The notes beneath the pieces are model-generated. The model saw nothing but the letters and a program-made list of their open reading frames with translations. It ran no database searches and was not told where the DNA came from. Source: Gammaproteobacteria bacterium (GTDB lineage: Bacteria; Pseudomonadota; Gammaproteobacteria; Burkholderiales; Gallionellaceae). Taken from it: DNA of 64,000 nt. The stretch spans positions 1 through 64,000 of the forward strand of contig JAHJNJ010000042.1 in the NCBI GenBank assembly GCA_018820925.1, in the 5' to 3' direction. The position numbers were made by a program, and so were the translations under genes. Below are positions 3,277-44,559 of the stretch, in pieces; the first letter of the stretch is position 1; each line of letters begins with the position of its first letter.

Positions 3277-6200
3277 TCAGTCAATTTCCGACAGCGTTCC
3301 GCCTGCGAACAATAGCGCACAATGGACTTCTTTTCCCGCATACACCGACTGCATCGCTGTGCGGTATTCCTGCATCTGCGCACGGTAACGTGCTGCATCC
3401 CCTGAATCGCCCAGCTTGTAATCCAGCACCCACACTTCGCCGTCGAATTCCACCAGGCGGTCGATGCGTTTCAGTTCGCCTTTGGCGTTGATGTAGGGCA
3501 TTTCGTTGCTGGCTGTTCGATACTGCTTTGCATCGAAGAAGCGGGCGAGATGGGGTGCGGCGAGCAGGTGTTGGGCTTGTTGCCAGAGGGTTACTATTTC
3601 ATCCGATGGAATGGCGAGGCGTTGTTGGAGTTCGGCTCTCTGCGCATCATCCCTCTCCCCTGGCCCCGTGAAAACACCCTCTCCCTCTGGGAGAGGGCAT
3701 GGGGTGAGGGGCGGGAGAGGGGAATCTGACGCCAAGTGTTGCAGCAAAGCATGCAGCCAGATGCCGCGCTGTTGCTGCGCTGTGTTGCGGGTGGTGCGTT
3801 TGCCGGTGGTGAGGATGGGGGGCAACACAACTGCCGTTCGCCCTGAGCCTGTCGAAGGGTGAATGGATGAACCCAGTGGACTTTGTGGAGGCTTCGACAA
3901 GCCTGTCCTGAGCTCAGTCGAAGGGCTCAGCCCGAACGGCCCCTTCTGATTTTCCTGCGCTGCCGCAATGCGGTCGTACCACGACGGCGCTTTCTTCTTT
4001 TCTTCCTTGTCTTCGCCCTTGCTGTTGCCGCTCACGATGAGCGCCTGTTGCGCGCGGGTCATGGCGACGTAGAGCAGGTTCATTTCTTCGCGGGCCTGCT
4101 GGGCGGCGTCCAGCTCGAACAGCGGCGCGCGTTTTTTGCCGCGCGAAGCCTGGTCGGCATACAAAGAGAAGTGTTGCGGTCGTGGTTCGTGCGTGGGCCA
4201 ATCCAGCAGCACGTCATTGTTATCCTTCTTGCTTTGCTCGGCATTTGCGTCCAGCAGCCAGACGATGGGCGCTTCCAGTCCTTTCGATTCGTGCACGGTG
4301 TAGATGCGCACTGCATCGCCTGCCGTGCCGAGCTTGCCTTCGTCCGGGGCGTCGTCGCTGCTGTCGCGCAATTCGCGCAGGTCCTGCAGGAATCGCGGCA
4401 GGCTGGGATAGCGTCCGGCGTCGATGTCGAGCGCCATCTTCATGAAGGCGTGCAGGTTGGCGGCGACCTTGGCGTGCATTTCGATGGGCAGCACGGCGGT
4501 GTAGCGCGCCAGCACGTCGCCTTCGAAATAGATGCGGTCGAGCAGGTCGTGCACCGGGAGTTTGTCGGCGAGGGCGAGCCAGCGTTGCAGGAGTTCGGTT
4601 GCACGTTTTAGCGCTGGTGATGGTTCAGACAGGTGTTGCAGGCGCTGCCACCAGCAAAGCTTTACCCCCTCTCCCCCGCCCTCTCCCCGCTGAGGCGAGG
4701 GAGCATCTTGGGCGATACACATCAGGTCCGCATCACTGCACGCAAAGATCGGCGTGCGCAGCACCTGCGCCAGCGCCAGATCAGCGAACGGGGTGATGAG
4801 GAACATGAGCAGCGCCTGCACGTCTTCCGCTTCCAGCGTGTCGAGCAGTCCGCCGCGACGGGAACTGATGAAGGGGATGTGTTTTGCGCGCAGGGCTTCT
4901 TCGTACACTTGCAGATGGGTGCGGCTGCGCACCAGCACCATGATATCGCCCCAGGTGGCGCGGCGTGTTTGGCCTGAGTCGTTGACAGACCAATCGCTGG
5001 AGATGGTTTTCAGCTGGTCGGCGAACTGGATCGCTTCCTTGTGGCGTCCACCTTCTTCGGCTTCGTCGCGCGCTGTCGTCAGGGGATCGCGCAGAACGAG
5101 TAGCACATCTTCTGCGGCCTCTTCCTTGCCTTGCTCGGCAACAGCCAAAGGCAGCACCACGACAGAGCCGGGCAAGCCGGTATGCTCGGCAGTGTGTGGC
5201 TCGAAATCCACGAAGCCTTCCGGATGCCCGGCGAACACGGCATTCACGGCGGCCAGCACCGCCGGTGCGTTGCGGCGGGTATGGTTGTTGTGCAGCTCAT
5301 GCGCCGCAAAATGTGCTTTGAGGTATTCGCGCGCCACGCCGAACAGTCGCGCATCGGCGCGGCGGAAACGGTAAATGGATTGCTTGGGGTCGCCGACGAC
5401 GAACACGGTGGGTTGCGAATCGACCGCCACCGAGGCATCAAACCACGCGCGCAGGATTTGCCATTGCAGCGGGTTGGTATCCTGGAACTCGTCCAGCAGC
5501 ACATGGCGGTAGCGGCTGTCGAGTTTGTACTGCATGGTCTCGGCGTGCTCGCCCTGCTGCAGCAGGCGGCACAGCTGCCATTCCAGATCGGAGAAGTCCA
5601 TCTGCTGCTTTTGTGCCTTGAGTGCCTGGTAGCGCTCGAGGAAGGCCGCGCCGCAATGCAGTACGGCTTGGTTCAGGCGGTAGGTTTGCTGATCGGCCAG
5701 AATGTCGCGCACGATTTGCAGATTGGCGTGCAACATGGCCAAGGCTGAAGCAAATAAATTCTCATCCTGATTCTTGGTGGACTTCAGTTTGCGCGGCTCG
5801 TCTTTTTGCGTGAACAGCAACGGCCAGACTGCATCGAATCTCGCTTCCGGTTCAATATCCGTCCAGGCGCGTTCCAGCTCGGAAGCTTTATCTTTTTGCG
5901 TCTGCGTACCGTTGCCCTTGAGCTGATGGACAAAGGCAAACAGCGCTTCTTCGCTGTTGCCACACATGCCCCAGTCTTCCACCGGGTCGAACTCCATTTC
6001 CACGTCAAGATCGGCGAGGAGTTTATCCAAAGCGAAGTTCACTGAATCGTAACCCTCCCCCCCGGCCCCGTTGATACCCCCTCTCCCACCGGGAGAGGGC
6101 ATGGGGTGAGGGGCGGGCGAGGGGAGATGAGATGTATACGCCCACCATTCCGCGCGCTTGGCGAGGAAGTTGAACAGCAGTTTGCGCGTATTGAACAGCC

Positions 6201-6729
6201 CGCACTCGCCGAACAGCCACTGCATGTACTGCGCTTCGGCACTCTCCGGTTGCTTGCGCATCTGCTCCAGCAATTCTTCCCAGGCTTCTTCCTGCTCAGC
6301 CCCGGCGCGTTCCAGCAAACTCATCCCCTGCATCACGTCCGCATTCAGCGGCGCGCGCTGCATGACTTGCATGAACCAGCCGTGGAAGGTGCTGATGGTG
6401 ATGCCGGGTTGCGCCAGCAACACGCTGCTGTAGAGGCTGCGGGCGCGCTGCAATTGCGCATCGCTCAGTTCATCCACGCCGCGCTCGGCGCAGAATTTGC
6501 GCACAGAAGCTTCATCACCCATCGCCAGATCTCGCAGCCACAACTGCAGGCGTGCCTGCATTTCCTGCGCGGCTTTGCGCGTGAAGGTGATGGCGAGGAT
6601 TTGCGACGGTGCCGCGCCATCCAGCAGCAGACGCACGATGCGCGACACCAGTAGCCAAGTCTTGCCGCTGCCGGCGCAGGCTTCGACGACGACGCTGTGT
6701 TTTGGATCCAGAGCAATGTGGTTACTCAT
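3277..6729 (-). CDS. addA: AddA-like UvrD/RecB helicase-nuclease
   Basis: An ATP-dependent 3'-5' helicase with a C-terminal nuclease for processing double-strand breaks with AddB. Walker A is ACAGSGKT at residues 17-24, then TFTRKAAQEMQ. Helicase motifs include LLDEFQDTNPLQW, GDPKQSIYRFRRAD and VHESKGLEAPIV. The nuclease motif near residue 1088 is RIDRLV followed by DYK (1103-1105). The start is ATG 6729, overlapping the addB stop as ATGA; an upstream in-frame ATG at 6777 lies inside addB and is less likely. Length is 1150 aa. Four low-complexity insertions (about residues 201-226, 676-690, 931-965, 1003-1027) are encoded by palindromic repeat elements read in frame. Confidence 0.9.
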   Translation of the reverse strand: MSNHIALDPKHSVVVEACAGSGKTWLLVSRIVRLLLDGAAPSQILAITFTRKAAQEMQARLQLWLRDLAMGDEASVRKFCAERGVDELSDAQLQRARSLYSSVLLAQPGITISTFHGWFMQVMQRAPLNADVMQGMSLLERAGAEQEEAWEELLEQMRKQPESAEAQYMQWLFGECGLFNTRKLLFNFLAKRAEWWAYTSHLPSPAPHPMPSPGGRGGINGAGGEGYDSVNFALDKLLADLDVEMEFDPVEDWGMCGNSEEALFAFVHQLKGNGTQTQKDKASELERAWTDIEPEARFDAVWPLLFTQKDEPRKLKSTKNQDENLFASALAMLHANLQIVRDILADQQTYRLNQAVLHCGAAFLERYQALKAQKQQMDFSDLEWQLCRLLQQGEHAETMQYKLDSRYRHVLLDEFQDTNPLQWQILRAWFDASVAVDSQPTVFVVGDPKQSIYRFRRADARLFGVAREYLKAHFAAHELHNNHTRRNAPAVLAAVNAVFAGHPEGFVDFEPHTAEHTGLPGSVVVLPLAVAEQGKEEAAEDVLLVLRDPLTTARDEAEEGGRHKEAIQFADQLKTISSDWSVNDSGQTRRATWGDIMVLVRSRTHLQVYEEALRAKHIPFISSRRGGLLDTLEAEDVQALLMFLITPFADLALAQVLRTPIFACSDADLMCIAQDAPSPQRGEGGGEGVKLCWWQRLQHLSEPSPALKRATELLQRWLALADKLPVHDLLDRIYFEGDVLARYTAVLPIEMHAKVAANLHAFMKMALDIDAGRYPSLPRFLQDLRELRDSSDDAPDEGKLGTAGDAVRIYTVHESKGLEAPIVWLLDANAEQSKKDNNDVLLDWPTHEPRPQHFSLYADQASRGKKRAPLFELDAAQQAREEMNLLYVAMTRAQQALIVSGNSKGEDKEEKKKAPSWYDRIAAAQENQKGPFGLSPSTELRTGLSKPPQSPLGSSIHPSTGSGRTAVVLPPILTTGKRTTRNTAQQQRGIWLHALLQHLASDSPLPPLTPCPLPEGEGVFTGPGERDDAQRAELQQRLAIPSDEIVTLWQQAQHLLAAPHLARFFDAKQYRTASNEMPYINAKGELKRIDRLVEFDGEVWVLDYKLGDSGDAARYRAQMQEYRTAMQSVYAGKEVHCALLFAGGTLSEID
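3650..3723 (+). repeat. GC-rich palindromic element inside addA (type A, copy 1)
   Basis: A roughly 72-bp element of CCCTCTCCC / GGGAGAGGGCATGGGG / GGCGGGAGAGG type. It is nearly the same sequence, in the same orientation, as 6052-6125 but is translated in a different frame (residues about 1003-1027 of AddA, PLTPCPLPEGEG). The gene stays open through it. Confidence 0.8.
3836..3939 (+). repeat. TTCGCCCTGAGC...TCGAAGG inverted element inside addA (type B)
   Basis: Two facing arms, GTTCGCCCTGAGCCTGTCGA (3836 on) and a CTTCGACAAGCCTGTCCTGA arm (3892 on), form an imperfect inverted repeat of about 100 bp. It is read in frame as AddA residues 931-965 (PSTGSGRT). The same family occurs in cysS at 43498-43572, where PSTDSGRT is produced, and inside the MITE near 41478-41502. 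Confidence 0.75.
4660..4704 (+). repeat. short type A palindromic element inside addA
   Basis: CCCCCTCTCCCCCGCCCTCTCCCCGCTGAGG-like DNA of about 45 bp, related to the elements at 3650 and 6052 but shorter. It adds PSPQRGEGGGEG to AddA at about residues 676-690 without breaking the frame. Confidence 0.6.
6052..6125 (+). repeat. GC-rich palindromic element inside addA (type A, copy 2)
   Basis: Second full copy of the element at 3650-3723, same orientation, with the stem CTCTCCCACCGGGAGAG. It is read as AddA residues about 201-226 (APHPMPSPGGRGG), a different frame from copy 1. Confidence 0.8.
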
Positions 6730-9341
6730 AACCACTCCCCCTTGCGGCATACTCCGCGCATCTCGCAATATCCGCACACCGCATCAATGCCGTTCGCAAC
6801 CAACCCTGCCCCGCCGCGTATCGCGCCCATCACGTTCACCAAGCGCTCCGCATTCAGCTGCGCCAGCAACGGCACGTCGTGTTTGGGCTCGACCAGTTTC
6901 ACTTTGCCATTCTCGATGCTGACGAAGGCCGCATCCGCCGCTTCATGCGCGTAGGCATAGCACGCCAGTTGCACGTCTTCGCCCGGTTCGCGCAATTTGT
7001 TGCGCAGCACTTGCTCACTTTGCGTCTTGTAATCGAGGACGCGCTTGGCTTCGCCGTTCACATCCAGCCGGTCGATACGTCCGCGTAGCCTCACGACTTC
7101 CAGGTCCCAGTCGAAGGCACTCTCCGACTCGGCATGGCGCCAGCCTTGCGCTTCGTTCTGTTTCTGCCATTCGATGTAAGCAAACAGGGATTTGAACCAG
7201 CGCGCCAGCCAGGCCCGCGCCTCGAAATCCTGCTGCAGCAGGTCGGCAAACACGTCTTCGCTGATCTGGCGCAATGCAGTCTGCAGTTCATCATCCGGGT
7301 GTTCACTTGCCAGCGGATAGCGCCCGTGGAAGCGCTGCAATATTTTATGCACGCGCTCGCCGTAGTCGCGTTTCTCGATGACTTCCTGCACTTCGTCGAG
7401 TTCGTTCAGGCGCAGGATATGACGCGCATGAAATTGGTAGGGACAGGCGACCAGCGAGTTGTAGCCGCTGATGGAGACACTCGGGGGAACGAGATCGGCT
7501 GCCGCCGCCGGGGCGGGTTGCGTCGCCGCCGGCAGCTCGACCGAATGCGCATCTTCCGCCGCAAGCCAGGCATGCAACCCCGATTCCGTGAGATCGTCGC
7601 CGTAAGTCAGCTCATGCAGGTCGCGCAGCATTTCCAGATACGGGCTGAGCAGCCCCGCTTCGCCGTTCCTGTCCTTCTGCCAGGTGACCAGCACACTGTC
7701 GTTCAGGGCCAACAAAGCCAGCAGGTCATCGCGCTGCCGTGCGGCATGCGTGGCGCGCGTGGGCAGGTTCAGCGCTGCGCGCACGGCGTCGTTAAACCAG
7801 CGCCCGCCGTCGGAGACGCCGGGCAGATGATCCGCATCGCAGCCCAGCAGCAGCACCGCATCGAAAGCGCGCCAGCGCGTGGCCGCGAGGTGGGTGAAAC
7901 GCACCGGGCTGTCGATGCTGCTGTCGCGAAAGGTTTCGGTATCCAATTGTTGCGCCAGCCAGCGCCGCCATTCGGCGAAACGGTAGCGGCCTGCGTCAGC
8001 CGCCAATTCCTGCTGCCAGTGCTGCAGCGCGCCCAGCAATTGCAAACCGGCATCGTCCTGCTGCAAACCCTTGTCGATACCCAGCACTTGCAGGCTTTCG
8101 CGCAATGCATCCAGCCACTCGGCCAGGGTTTTCTTTTTGTTTTGCTCCAGCAATGCGGCCGCCTGCCGCAAACGGGCCAGCGGCTGGTGCAGCACCAATT
8201 CGGATTCGGCGAGTGCGCTGAATTTTTCCAGTCCGGCGACGACACCCTGTTTGCGCAGCAGTTGTTCGAGCTGGTACACCGCCGACTTGCGTTCGCCCGC
8301 CGCCATGTCGGCAAAAATGAAAGGCGACTTGAGCAGGTCGAGCAGATCCTGATGATAGAAGTCGCTTTGCAGTGCACTGAGCCAGCGATCCAGCACCGTG
8401 CTCACCGACAGCGTGGCGAAAGTCCAGCCGGTTTCGTCCGCCACCAGTATCTCGGCGCGTTCCAGCAAGGCGCGCATGCGCCGAGCCACCACGCGATCCT
8501 GGGCGACAATGGCGATGTCGCGTTTGCCGGCCTGCAGCCACAAGCGTACTTGCATGGCGGCGGCGCGGGCTTCCTGTTCGAGGCTGGTGGCGGCGAAGAA
8601 GTGCAGTCTATCCCCGAGCGCGGGGATACTCTGCTCGCGCAACCCGTTGGATGTAGCGCGCAGCAAGCCGCCCCATTGCGTATCCATCTCGCGCAAGTCG
8701 AACACCACGACCGCCGCACGCTCTGCATACTCATCCAGGAAACGCTGCTCCAGCGCATTCCAGTCCGAGGTGCGCAGCACATACAGCGGTTGTGCGGCCT
8801 GCCCCGCCAGCCCGGCCAACCGCGACTGGTAAACGCGCGCCGCATCCAGCTCCGCGCCGCTCTGCATGGCGTGCCACAGTTCGAATACCAGCCGCGCTTC
8901 CAGCTGCAATGTGCTGTTTTGCCGCGCCTGATACGCTTTCTGCACGGCAGCCGCAAACTCTTCAGCATTGCCCGGCAAGTCGGCAAGCGAATATGTCAGT
9001 TCGTCGAACAGCGCCAGCAGTTCCTGCGTCATGCTCCACAGGTCGGCGTTCTCGAACCATTTTTTATCGCGCAGTTGTTGATACAGCAGCGCGCTGCGCT
9101 GGCTGTCGCTGACGACAAGCGCATCCGGCACAATGTTTTGCGCCCAGTCGTTGAGTGTCACCATTTGCGGCAGCAGCAGCGCCGGACGCTGCGCACCGCG
9201 CATCAGCGCGCGGGCCAGCGGTTGGGCAACGTGGAAGTTGGGAAGCAGTACTGTGATGCCGCGCAGATCGGGAAGCGAGCTTGCGTGCGCAGTCAGGATG
9301 CGCCGGGCGATACGGTCAAAGAAGTCGTCGGAAACACTCAC
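6726..9341 (-). CDS. addB: AddB-like PD-(D/E)XK exonuclease subunit
   Basis: An 871-aa partner of AddA in end resection. The C-terminal nuclease has [10 protein letters not shown] followed by VLDYKT. Four cysteines around it ([10 protein letters not shown] near residue 640 and [10 protein letters not shown] at the extreme C-terminus) match the iron-sulphur-staple arrangement of AddB/RecB-family nucleases. The N-terminal helicase-like half lacks a clear Walker A, as in many proteobacterial AddB proteins. Its start overlaps the ferredoxin stop by 4 bp and its stop overlaps the addA start by 4 bp (ATGA both times), so translation is probably coupled along the unit. Confidence 0.85.
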
Positions 9342-41539: not shown

Positions 41540-41562
41540 CGTATGCGTGGATTCGCGTCCCC

Positions 41563-41643
41563 ATCCTCCAACACGATTCCCGCTTCCAGCCTTTCCTTAC
41601 GAATTCCATCTACTTCGGAGAAATTCCCGGTTTTCTTGGCATC
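41563..41643 (-). pseudogene. decayed fragment of a cysS 3' end
   Basis: On the minus strand this 81-bp segment reads DAKKTGNFSEVDGIRKERLE and then AGIVLED. The intact CysS C-terminus at 43123-43203 reads [20 protein letters not shown] then AGIVLED. Hand alignment gives about 61 of 81 identical bases without gaps, including an 18-base identical run. An in-frame stop at 41647-41649 precedes it and the reading diverges after the ED, next to the MITE. It is a truncated relic, too diverged to be a recent copy of the neighbouring gene. Confidence 0.75.
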
Positions 41644-41664
41644 AGCTCACCCCGCAAAGTGGTA

Positions 41665-41697
41665 TTGCCAAATCCATCAACATGGCTATACTGTACA
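41665..41697 (+). promoter_or_regulatory. promoter and likely autoregulatory operator of the toxin-antitoxin pair
   Basis: TTGCCA (41665-41670), a 16-base spacer and TATACT (41687-41692) make a plausible sigma-70 promoter. The palindrome TGTACA (41692-41697) overlaps the end of the -10 box. TGTACA is the core of YefM/Phd operators in E. coli yefM-yoeB, so antitoxin binding here would repress the pair. Confidence 0.5.
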
Positions 41698-41723
41698 TAA
41701 TAGCTAGTTAAAAGGAGATAGAC

Positions 41724-41999
41724 ATGAAAACAATGAGTTCGGTGCAAGCCCAGAACAACTTTGGAGAGTTACTGGATACCGCCCAGCGTGAGCCAGTGAC
41801 AATTACTCGGCGCGGTCGCACGGTGGCTTTTTTGGTGTCGCCACAGGATATGGAAGATTTGACTGATGCCCGCCGAAAACGCGAGCAGGCGTTGGCCGAT
41901 TTCGAGGCATTCTTCTCGCGCGCCGACGCCAAATTAAGCGCGGAGGCGAAAAACCTGACCGATGCCGACATCGACCGGATGGTGAATGAACTTCGTTAG
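41724..41999 (+). CDS. Phd/YefM-family antitoxin
   Basis: The protein has 91 aa. The N-terminal Phd DNA-binding fold shows SSVQAQNNFGELLDTAQREPVTITRRGRTVAFLVSPQD; the C-terminal half is a helical toxin-binding tail. A strong Shine-Dalgarno (AAGGAGA) precedes ATG 41724. It overlaps the PIN toxin gene by 14 bp, as is usual for such pairs. Confidence 0.88.
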   Translation: MKTMSSVQAQNNFGELLDTAQREPVTITRRGRTVAFLVSPQDMEDLTDARRKREQALADFEAFFSRADAKLSAEAKNLTDADIDRMVNELR

Positions 42000-42408
42000 G
42001 CGCATCGTGCTGGATACCAGCACGCTGATCGGTGCTGTGTTGCGCCCGCAATCTGTGCCCAGACAGGCGCTATTGAAGGCATTCGCCAATGGTACGTTAT
42101 GCGCCTCTCCGTCCACACTGAACGAATTTGAACTGGTGCTGATGCGTGAAAAGTTGGATCGCTATCTGGATCAGGAAACTCGCCGGGAGTTTTTATCCAT
42201 GTATCGCAACCATGTGAGGCTGTTTCCTGTTACCGAGGTCGAAGAAGCCGCTTTACCCCTTTCCTGTCGAGATCCCCGCGATAACAAGTTCCTGGCACTC
42301 GCCTTGGCTTGTTCTGCGGATGTGCTGGTATCCAGTGACGACGATCTGCAGGCACTGAACCCTTACCAGGGTATTCCTGTTTTATCGCCGAAGGAATTCC
42401 TGCTTTAA
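41986..42408 (+). CDS. PIN-domain toxin (putative ribonuclease)
   Basis: The protein has 140 aa. Acidic metal-binding residues sit in VLDTSTLIGAVL, LNEFELVL and DPRDNKFLALALA, and a final SSDDDL, giving the PIN active site of toxin-antitoxin RNases. It belongs to the PIN group usually annotated as a toxin component with a Phd partner. Its start lies inside the antitoxin gene. The RNA target is unknown. Confidence 0.87.
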   Translation: MNFVRRIVLDTSTLIGAVLRPQSVPRQALLKAFANGTLCASPSTLNEFELVLMREKLDRYLDQETRREFLSMYRNHVRLFPVTEVEEAALPLSCRDPRDNKFLALALACSADVLVSSDDDLQALNPYQGIPVLSPKEFLL

Positions 42409-42453
42409 GCGTGCTATCAGGCGCGCCGCCAGGTTGTACACAGTGGCGCTCTT

Positions 42454-42512
42454 GTAGGAGCCCGATTTATCGGGCGATCTTGAGATTGTCGCGCAATGAA
42501 TTGCGCTCCTAC
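42454..42512. repeat. 59-bp REP element, left of RAYT
   Basis: Begins GTAGGAGCCCGAT and ends ATTGCGCTCCTAC, with inner stems CCCGAT/ATCGGG and GCGCAAT/ATTGCGC. It is a direct repeat of 43029-43087 with only a few differences. Lies just downstream of the RAYT gene's stop. Confidence 0.85.
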
Positions 42513-42961
42513 AGCCATATCGCATCCCAATGCGGGTACTCGCCCGCACTCTTGGTCAGACCCGAACGCACGGGATTGGCTACAACATATCGCGCTATGT
42601 CGCGTATATCTTCATCGTCGCGCAGCGCATGATCATGGAATCCCCGCTGCCAGATCTGCTGCCGGAGAGTATTCGAAACCTTGGCTTTGAATAGACGGAC
42701 GGCTTCGGACAAGTTTCCATCGTCTGCAAGCTGAAGCAACCAATGGATATGATCGGGCATCACGACGAAGGCCAGCGTTTGCGCATGCCGCACAACATCC
42801 CCGTCATGAAAACACTGTATTGCCAGACGTGCGGCGGCAAAAGACATAAAAACCGGTTTGCGTGATGCGGTGACGGCAGTCACCAAATAGGCATGGTTCG
42901 GCAGGGAAACGCGGCCTTTGCGCAGGTTCTTTCCGCCAGGTTGTTTTGCTGCGTCGCTCAT
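42509..42961 (-). CDS. REP-associated tyrosine transposase (RAYT)
   Basis: The 150-aa protein is of the Y1/IS200-like (Transposase_17) family. The HUH pair is in MPDHIHWLLQL and the catalytic tyrosine is probably in ARYVVANPVRSG. ATG 42961 (MSDAAKQPGG) is chosen; an upstream in-frame codon at 43045 would run into the REP copy. RAYTs act on the REP sequences that flank them, and two 59-bp copies do so here. No second IS200-type gene or terminal structure is seen, so it looks domesticated. Confidence 0.88.
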   Translation of the reverse strand: MSDAAKQPGGKNLRKGRVSLPNHAYLVTAVTASRKPVFMSFAAARLAIQCFHDGDVVRHAQTLAFVVMPDHIHWLLQLADDGNLSEAVRLFKAKVSNTLRQQIWQRGFHDHALRDDEDIRDIARYVVANPVRSGLTKSAGEYPHWDAIWL

Positions 42962-42991
42962 GACGAAAGCCTCGTATGAATCGCACGGCAT

Positions 42992-43013
42992 TCGCGCAAT
43001 AAATTGCGCTCCT
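42992..43013. repeat. partial REP copy upstream of RAYT
   Basis: TCGCGCAATAAATTGCGCTCC matches the right half of the 59-bp element and lies in the RAYT leader. It makes a two-unit arrangement with 43029-43087. Confidence 0.7.
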
Positions 43014-43028
43014 GGAATTTGCCACGCC

Positions 43029-43087
43029 GTAGGAGCCCGATTCATCGGGCGACCTTGAAATTATCGCGCAATAAATTGCGCTCCTAC
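43029..43087. repeat. 59-bp REP element between RAYT and cysS
   Basis: Second full copy of the 42454-42512 element in the same orientation, starting GTAGGAGCCCGATTCATCGG and ending GCGCTCCTAC. It ends two bases before the cysS stop codon. Confidence 0.85.
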
Positions 43088-43089
43088 AA

Positions 43090-44559
43090 CTACGCTCGCC
43101 GCCAGGTCGTTCCGGCTGCGGTATCTTCCAGCACGATTCCCGCTTCCAGCAATTCTTTGCGGATGCGGTCAGCTTCGGCGAAGTTCTTGGATTTTTTGGC
43201 GGCGATGCGGGCTTCGATCTGGGCGTTGATATATTCCTCACCTCGCACAATCTCCGCCTCAGCCGAGCTTGATACAACTGCGACTGATTTGCCCTGCAAA
43301 AACGCTTGCGGATCGCGTTGTAACAGCCCGAGCACGCCTGCCAATGCCTTGAGTTGTGTTGCCGCTTCGACCGACTGATTGCGGTTCACTTCGTTGGCGA
43401 GGTCGAACAGCACGGCGACGGCTTCGGGGGTGTTGAAGTCGTCGTCCATGGCGGCTTTGAAGCGCTGGGCATATGAATCATTCCAGTCAACCAAGCCCGT
43501 CCGCCCTGAGTCTGTAGAAGGGGAACGACCTTGCGAAGATTCATGTGCTTCGACAGGCTCAGCACGAACGGAGGTGGATTTCAGTGCCGTATAAAGCCGC
43601 GTCAACGCGCCCTTGGCATCGTCCAGATGCTGGTCGGAATAATTCAGCGGGCTGCGGTAGTGCGCGCGCAGGATGAAGAAGCGCACCACTTCGGCGTCGT
43701 ATTTCTTCAGCACTTCGCGGATGGTGAAGAAATTACCCAGGCTCTTGGACATTTTTTCGTTGTCCACGCGCACGAAGCCGTTGTGCATCCAGTAGTTCAC
43801 GTACTGGCACTGGTGTGCGCCTTCGCTCTGCGCGATTTCATTCTCGTGATGCGGAAACTGCAGGTCGGCGCCGCCACCGTGGATGTCGAAATGTTTGCCC
43901 AGTAATTCCGAACCCATCGCGGAACATTCCAGATGCCAGCCGGGACGGCCCTTGCCCCATTTTGAATCCCATTTCACTTCGTCCGCTTCGCCATCCTTGG
44001 CGTGTTTCCACAACACGAAGTCGAGCGGGTCATTCTTGTCGGAAGCCACTTCCACACGCTCACCGGCGCGCAAGTCTTCCAGCGATTTGCCAGAGAGCTT
44101 GCCGTAACCTTCAAATTTGCGCACCGCGTAGTTCACGTCACCGTCCGCCGCCTGGTAGGCCAAACCGTTCTTTTCCAGTTGCGCGACCATCTCCAGCATC
44201 TGCGGCACGAACTGCGTGGCGCGCGGTTCGTGGTCGGGGCGCTGCACGCCGAGCGCGTCGGCATCTTCGTGCATGGCGTCGATGAAGCGCTGCGTCAGCG
44301 TATGGATGGATTCCTTGTTCTCCGCCGCGCGCTTGATGATCTTGTCGTCGATGTCGGTGATGTTGCGCACGTAGGTGACATCGTAACCGCTCGCCTTGAG
44401 CCAGCGGTACACCATGTCGAACACCACCATGACGCGCGCGTGGCCGAGGTGACAGTAGTCGTAGACTGTCATGCCGCACACGTACATGCGCACTTTGTTC
44501 GGCTCGATGGGTTTAAAGTCCTGCTTGTCGCGGGCGAGGGTGTTGTAGATTTTTAACAT
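43090..44559 (-). CDS. cysS: cysteinyl-tRNA synthetase with repeat-derived insertion
   Basis: A 489-aa class I enzyme charging tRNA-Cys. HIGH-type motif HLGHA, KMSKS in [13 protein letters not shown], zinc ligands in YVCGMTVYD and GWHLECSAM plus HHENE. The C-terminal anticodon-binding helix is [17 protein letters not shown]. Residues about 327-355 (including SVRAEPVEA and PSTDSGRTG) are not conserved synthetase sequence: they come from a palindromic repeat inserted in frame between the catalytic and helical domains. Confidence 0.96.
43498..43572 (+). repeat. type B palindromic element inside cysS
   Basis: An inverted arrangement of CCGCCCTGAGTCTGTAGAAG and GCTTCGACAGGCTCAGCACG arms, the same family as 3836-3939 in addA. 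It is translated as about 25 extra residues without breaking the frame. Confidence 0.75.

Follow-up and report, generated by a model that had tools for sequence, protein, structure and literature searches.

Palindromic repeats of about ten families at five sites of addA in Gallionellaceae

Repetitive extragenic palindromic (REP) sequences can lie within open reading frames (ORFs), many of them for DNA synthesis and repair (PMC3733652). In Wolbachia, in-frame palindromic regions are described three times in addA, twice in addB and twice in priA, and were judged non-inactivating (PMC4224334); in Rickettsia conorii, an insert-bearing Gmk protein is made and active (PMC2229807). We analysed palindromic inserts in the addA-like gene of a 64,000-nucleotide stretch of DNA (hereafter the window; positions 1 to 64,000 of contig JAHJNJ010000042.1, assembly GCA_018820925.1) from a gammaproteobacterium. 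We take it to belong to the Gallionellaceae, iron oxidisers and related bacteria, since its closest named kin are found there (Sideroxyarcus, Gallionella, Sideroxydans and others). Our analysis suggests, with a probability that we put at roughly 85%, that short, dispersed, non-autonomous palindromic repeats, resembling REPs or miniature inverted-repeat transposable elements (MITEs), inserted in frame into addA, where they are tolerated in loops and one family follows another.

Four elements in the addA gene of the window

Genes were called from ORFs and a codon score, without a gene finder. The repeats were sorted by motif into about ten families, which we lettered A to K; members of two of them lie in the addA-like ORF, at sites shared with related genes (see below).

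3277..6777, minus strand: addA-like helicase-nuclease ORF, 1166 amino acids from a GTG; the probable ATG start is codon 17, at window position 6729
3651..3723, minus strand: E1, composite palindrome of family A at site S1018, read as SPLPPLTPCPLPEGEGVFTGPGERD
6053..6125, minus strand: E2, composite palindrome of family A at site S216, read as LPSPAPHPMPSPGGRGGINGAGGEG in a phase other than that of E1
4661..4710, minus strand: E3, shorter element of family A at site S690, read as QDAPSPQRGEGGGEGVK
3830..3945, minus strand: T2, family-B copies in inverted orientation at site S945, the linker between helicase and nuclease; motif TTCGNNNTGAGCYTGTCGAA exact at 3837-3856

The ORF matches the NCBIfam model TIGR02784 with an expectation value (E) of 1.2e-135, under the family cut-off, and carries the Pfam domains UvrD-helicase, UvrD_C and PDDEXK_1. 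A first-pass annotation, made from the letters of the window alone, had described E1 and E2 as nearly identical and equally oriented. They are indeed direct repeats of 73 nt each, and with 64 of 73 bases equal (88%) the words "nearly identical" were slightly strong. The same annotation held that the two are read in different frames, that a shorter relative lies near 4660 and a second repeat type near 3836, and that all four leave the frame open. These statements hold: on the coding (minus) strand E1 starts in phase 0 and E2 in phase 1, the other two elements belong to families A and B (the covariance model of family A hits E3 at 4667-4703 with E 0.0014), and the 1166-residue ORF is intact across all four.

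When E1 was used as a blastn-type query against the genome, 11 matches were returned, and those longer than 43 nt were E1 and E2 only. The long form, which could have been copied from S1018 to S216, is also present at S1018 in three relatives (L013, L015 and L016), whose copies share 66 of 73 bases with E1, and E1 is no closer to E2 (64 of 73). The elements contain inverted repeats. As RNA, E1 folds with -48.9 kcal/mol (z -4.98), and E3 and T2 reach z values of -3.37 and -3.38; that of E2 is merely -1.59, with 8 of 200 shuffles equally good. Rfam returned no match in the window at the gathering score.

Insertion sites, selection and predicted structure

We aligned AddA from 92 loci, coming from 30 of 61 genomes searched and from 62 named loci, which left 66 rows once identical ones were removed. 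Most rows are metagenome bins, the rows share ancestry, and two genes are each represented by two fragment rows (L035/L098 and L100/L103). Five fixed sites emerged, the four that hold the window elements (S216, S690, S945 and S1018) and S555, each of them vacant in a good many rows and occupied in others. At S216, the site of E2, an insert of at least 5 residues is present in 15 of 63 rows, so that the window reads WAYTSHLPSPAPHPMPSPGGRGGINGAGGEGYDSV where the uninterrupted L049 reads WAYTQGQQDTL; at S1018, the site of E1, 27 of 60 rows have an insert. The first-pass annotation had asked whether relatives might contain the same residues without the palindrome; relatives that lack the palindrome were found to lack the residues too.

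Family motifs occur in 12 of 63 rows at S216, 22 of 62 at S555, 49 of 62 at S690, 39 of 62 at S945 and 26 of 60 at S1018; the background rate, measured on 120-bp pieces, is 37 of 1102. All five sites are covered in 57 rows: 51 of them contain one motif or more, including 6 with a motif at every site, and the remaining 6 are free of motifs. An inverted-repeat score of at least 12, which is the background maximum (99th percentile, 9), was reached in 27 of 62 rows at S690 and 22 of 62 at S945. Ten order-level AddA rows from other families were free of family motifs in the stretches they cover, where inverted-repeat scores did not exceed 9 (S1018 and almost the whole of S945 are missing from one of them, L117). 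As an observation apart, L034, L048 and L071 each carry an extra fragment of the AddA C-terminus (within residues 1048-1166) beside the full gene; L034 and L071 may represent one genome.

It is conceivable that hairpins or peptides at these sites are kept for a function, for example a hairpin in the mRNA as a brake on the ribosome between domains, or a linker as a means of tuning AddAB. Motifs are present in most rows at S690 and S945 despite changing sequence and family, and the folding of E1, E3 and T2 clearly surpasses that of their shuffles. However, orientation, phase and family all vary, E2 folds hardly better than its shuffles, and both the six motif-free rows among the 57 and the order-level rows do without the motifs. 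We therefore regard a retained function as unlikely.

For comparison with other DNA we counted inverted repeats of score at least 13 in 25 loci with long flanks, taking the neighbour of addA as a control gene:

6726..9341, minus strand: addB-like ORF (TIGR02786, E 9.9e-41, under the cut-off; Pfam PDDEXK_1)

addA had 27 inverted repeats in 89.0 kb (3.04 per 10 kb) and addB had 2 in 43.9 kb (0.46). Other ORFs had 3 in 62.7 kb when at least 300 residues long (0.48) and 4 in 57.5 kb when 100-299 residues long (0.70); between ORFs there were 12 in 23.9 kb (5.03). addA is thus 6.5-fold denser than addB and the long ORFs together (p 6.6e-6, uncorrected for shared ancestry).

No stop codon was found from the probable start onwards in any of the 54 rows tested. 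The other 8 of the 62 tree rows were left out of this count: the window itself (which is open), the partial or frameshifted L033, L035, L083, L085, L093 and L103, and L060, in which addA is fused to addB. Outside the sites, the ratio of nonsynonymous to synonymous substitution rates (dN/dS) was 0.059-0.133 in seven pairs. The open frames and the dN/dS values rule out a pseudogene, the other possibility that the first-pass annotation had raised, and indicate that addA is functional and under purifying selection. They also bear on the idea that the segment is skipped or removed from the mRNA, by ribosome bypass or RNA processing, leaving a protein without the insert. Strong hairpins are possible at fixed places, a point in its favour, but bypass has no need of an open in-frame insert, and yet all 54 rows are open; we hold this idea to be very improbable.

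To place the sites in a protein we used an AlphaFold model of L078, a row without a motif at any site (predicted local distance difference test (pLDDT) 83.8, predicted template modelling score (pTM) 0.68; outgroup rows used), whose best structural match is AddA of Bacillus subtilis AddAB (4cej_A, E 5.7e-45). In this model S216, S690 and S1018 are six-residue coils between helices, S945 lies in the low-confidence helicase-nuclease linker, and S555 in a low-confidence stretch with a short helix; coil makes up 34% of the model. For the window's own AddA the prediction was of low quality (pLDDT 57.2, pTM 0.34), and we did not use it. The predicted positions suggest that the insertion sites are loops or low-confidence linkers, which together with the open frames agrees with the first-pass view of in-frame insertion into tolerant loops.

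Repeat families, their succession and other host genes

The same site can hold many families. We found A, B and D at S216; A, D, E, G, I and K at S555; A, B, E, G and H at S690; A to G, I, J and K at S945; and A, D and G at S1018, where some of the single entries are chance. Family A, the commonest, is read in all three phases. Counting its plus-strand pattern, and leaving matches of the palindrome on the opposite strand uncounted, it has phase 0 in 10 of 11 rows and phase 2 in 1 at S216, phase 2 in 14 and phase 1 in 3 at S1018, and phase 2 in 5 and phase 0 in 6 at S555. Read by eye, the copies at S216 stand in both orientations.

Several families are also dispersed. A genome scan for family A gave 87 matches at E <= 1, from the 150 scored among 944 preliminary candidates and with some places called on both strands. 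For the family-B motif, the genome contains 56 exact matches and another 22 that differ at one position; its backwards pattern gives none. Families G and H are absent from the window's own genome and dispersed in 11 and 9, respectively, of 34 genomes of the genus, with up to 21 and 33 partly overlapping matches and none for the reversed-pattern control. In the copies of families A and B inspected by eye we saw no GTAG or CGTC tag at the palindrome end; the same inspection in relatives' addA showed family-I copies to begin GTAGGTCGGGAT and family-J copies to read GTAGGAGC (L019) and GTGGGAGC (L060). Within family B (for example at window 3837-3859), the variable triplet in TTCGNNNTGAGCYTGTCGAANNN can pair in full with the triplet that follows CGAA: this holds for 53 of 56 copies, where 12.4 would be expected if they were independent. 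Such covarying bases would form a stem that crosses the TTCG/CGAA pairing.

Close relatives can differ in the family they carry. L037 and L103, with 93.9% DNA identity outside the sites, have H and B at S690; L018 and L026 (94.8%) have H, a weak call, and G at the same site; and L030 and L070 (92.7%) differ twice, at S690 (G against B) and at S555 (I against E). Families also nest. By eye reading of the flanks, family D lies within another repeat in all 11 of its addA-site copies (7 in A, 2 in C, 1 in F and 1 in K), and in CysS of relatives it lies within A (L219) and within B (L229); the remainder of 29 family-D matches are further copies at other places, only part of them nested, together with hits due to chance. 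Since all 11 addA-site copies are nested, repeats appear to be landing pads for repeats, and the best reading of these sequences is that at least one family prefers existing repeats as its target.

These observations weigh on two further explanations. One is that the variation at the sites was spread chiefly by homologous exchange of gene segments among relatives, after few original insertions. The distant rows L014 and L027 do share a very similar S690 insert, but the existence of many families in both orientations and several phases, with some copies nested, calls for numerous insertions; as the chief cause we find exchange possible and rather doubtful, and probably exchange and insertion are both at work. 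The other is that these are ordinary fast-evolving linkers that look repetitive through G+C bias, with no mobile DNA. S690 and S945 do differ in length even among motif-free rows. However, the palindromic character of both sites far exceeds that of the remaining gene, B, G and H occur dispersed while their reversed-pattern controls give nothing, family A occurs in several phases and family D nests in others. This is the least probable of the alternatives and hardly credible.

Other genes of the genome are hosts as well. We examined 100 repeat clusters (48 of family A, 52 of family B) in part of the genome: 11 are in frame, 2 possibly split a gene, 20 have coding sequence on one side, 63 have no coding flanks and 4 lie at edges, and with longer flanks 15 are in frame. 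The first of these two scans flagged just one of the four known addA elements, so they are insensitive. Together, their in-frame clusters lie in 14 host proteins: AddA, PolA, MutS, Mfd, MutY, HsdM, MnmC, FolC, AmgK, a TIGR00275 flavoprotein, a CzcA-type transporter, a CheR-TPR protein, CysS and an IF-2B-family protein (the Mfd, AmgK and NCBIfam CheR matches are under the cut-off). DNA-repair proteins are 5 of the 14, or 4 of 13 without AddA, where the search started; the latter share has a rough p of 5e-4 to 3e-3, given an assumed repair share of 3-5% of coding length. It is possible, and we put it forward tentatively, that repair genes, addA above all, are preferred shared reservoirs in which palindromes land in palindromes, families replace one another between close relatives and the frame is kept, with hairpins that may tune repair and the spread of the elements.

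In PolA, family-A-like peptides lie near residues 280-293 in the window's own genome and in L245, L246, L247, L248, L250 and L273, the last of which also has a J-like insert after residue 512; additional residues at this place in L254, L257 and the order-level row L272 are not clearly repeat-like. The CysS host lies in the window:

43090..44559, minus strand: cysS, interrupted in frame by a family-B copy (motif exact at 43549-43568) that has no counterpart in E. coli CysS

At least 7 extra residues follow residue 333 in 11 of 19 Gallionellaceae CysS rows and in none of 11 other rows. Judged by their peptides, 10 of the 11 read like A, B, D or E (L218 having just 7 residues), and L223 does not. 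Downstream of cysS, window 41551-43090 holds ORFs that we named by eye as a Phd/YefM-like antitoxin and a PIN-like protein, a gene resembling a REP-associated tyrosine transposase (RAYT) at 42653-42898 with GTAG-type repeats, and, at 41551-41643, a second cysS 3'-end fragment with 68% identity to residues 453-483. This arrangement resembles the outcome of an insertion at the 3' end of cysS that left part of the gene duplicated; similar cysS 3' fragments occur in genomes G010 and G011.

Proposed explanation and known systems

We propose that frame and fold act as the filter: copies that keep the frame and land in surface loops or linkers would survive, and other insertions would be removed because AddA is needed. 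A palindrome in a harmless loop would be a landing pad for more, and the loop would therefore become a place where families succeed each other. Movement would be by transposition, with RAYT enzymes serving the GTAG-type families and an enzyme of some kind serving A and B. Turnover may proceed through nesting together with erosion or recombination, and the inserts are presumably translated and near neutral.

Several points weigh against this explanation. No target-site duplication could be established from empty and filled pairs. Four genes of the genome match Y1_Tnp, three over the cut-off, and three, L105 being the exception, have GTAG-type flanks; none of the four is flanked by family A or a clear family-B pair (flanks read by eye). 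Families E, H and K have no copy in 0.93 Mb outside addA; H proved dispersed in the wider search, and E and K were not searched further. Scores of at least 12 are rare at S216 (5 of 63 rows), S555 (6 of 62) and S1018 (1 of 60), and the site stretches are unequal in length to the 120-bp background pieces. Motifs were called by regular expression, with a chance rate of about 3.4% per background piece; surely chance are the A calls in the 30-nt S690 stretch of L088 and at a 21-nt S720 stretch, and the H call in L018 is weak. In L085, the addA frame shifts around residue 870, through assembly error or true decay, and the part beyond the shift contains repeats. Finally, an insert need not be harmless: six isopod Wolbachia strains have lost the nuclease domain of AddA to a stop within a region of this kind (PMC4224334).

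The first-pass annotation undersold the case, which extends to five sites, about ten families, family differences in close relatives, nesting and other repair genes. Two points in it reach further than our data: selection for the frame alone, and any kinship implied by its comparison with the Rickettsia elements. The case amounts to a natural experiment, in which dozens of related genomes have the same repair-enzyme loops empty or differently filled, in different frames. With it one can ask directly by what route mobile non-coding DNA turns into protein, if keeping the frame is the chief filter, and what makes repair genes hosts time after time.

Beyond the works cited, our literature search, which left most subscription journals outside, returned no paper on palindromic inserts in Gallionellaceae AddA. 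The Rickettsia palindromic elements are alike in behaviour, as in-frame palindromes in conserved proteins and between genes (PMC2229807, PMC3733652), and here too in-frame palindromes lie in conserved ORFs and are dispersed elsewhere; as described, those elements are 105-146 bp long and Rickettsia-specific, whereas ours are mostly shorter and of several families. Wolbachia, likened here by the description of its inserts, is an endosymbiont with inserts in addB, while addB of Gallionellaceae is poor in inverted repeats. REPs serve as targets of insertion sequences (PMC1525189), so that there too palindromic repeats are landing sites for mobile elements, but here the arriving element, D, is a short gene-less repeat and the landing is within coding genes. 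In Xanthomonas campestris and X. oryzae, recB holds different REPs at about one site (PMC3733652), as AddA does here. Compared with such GTAG/CGTC REPs, families A and B showed no tag on inspection, and one gene has five sites and about ten families, with nesting and differences between close relatives. In-frame REPs in repair genes and the Wolbachia addA inserts are already published, and the kind of event is therefore known; the new part is its scale, the turnover of many families at fixed AddA loops, and nesting inside coding genes.
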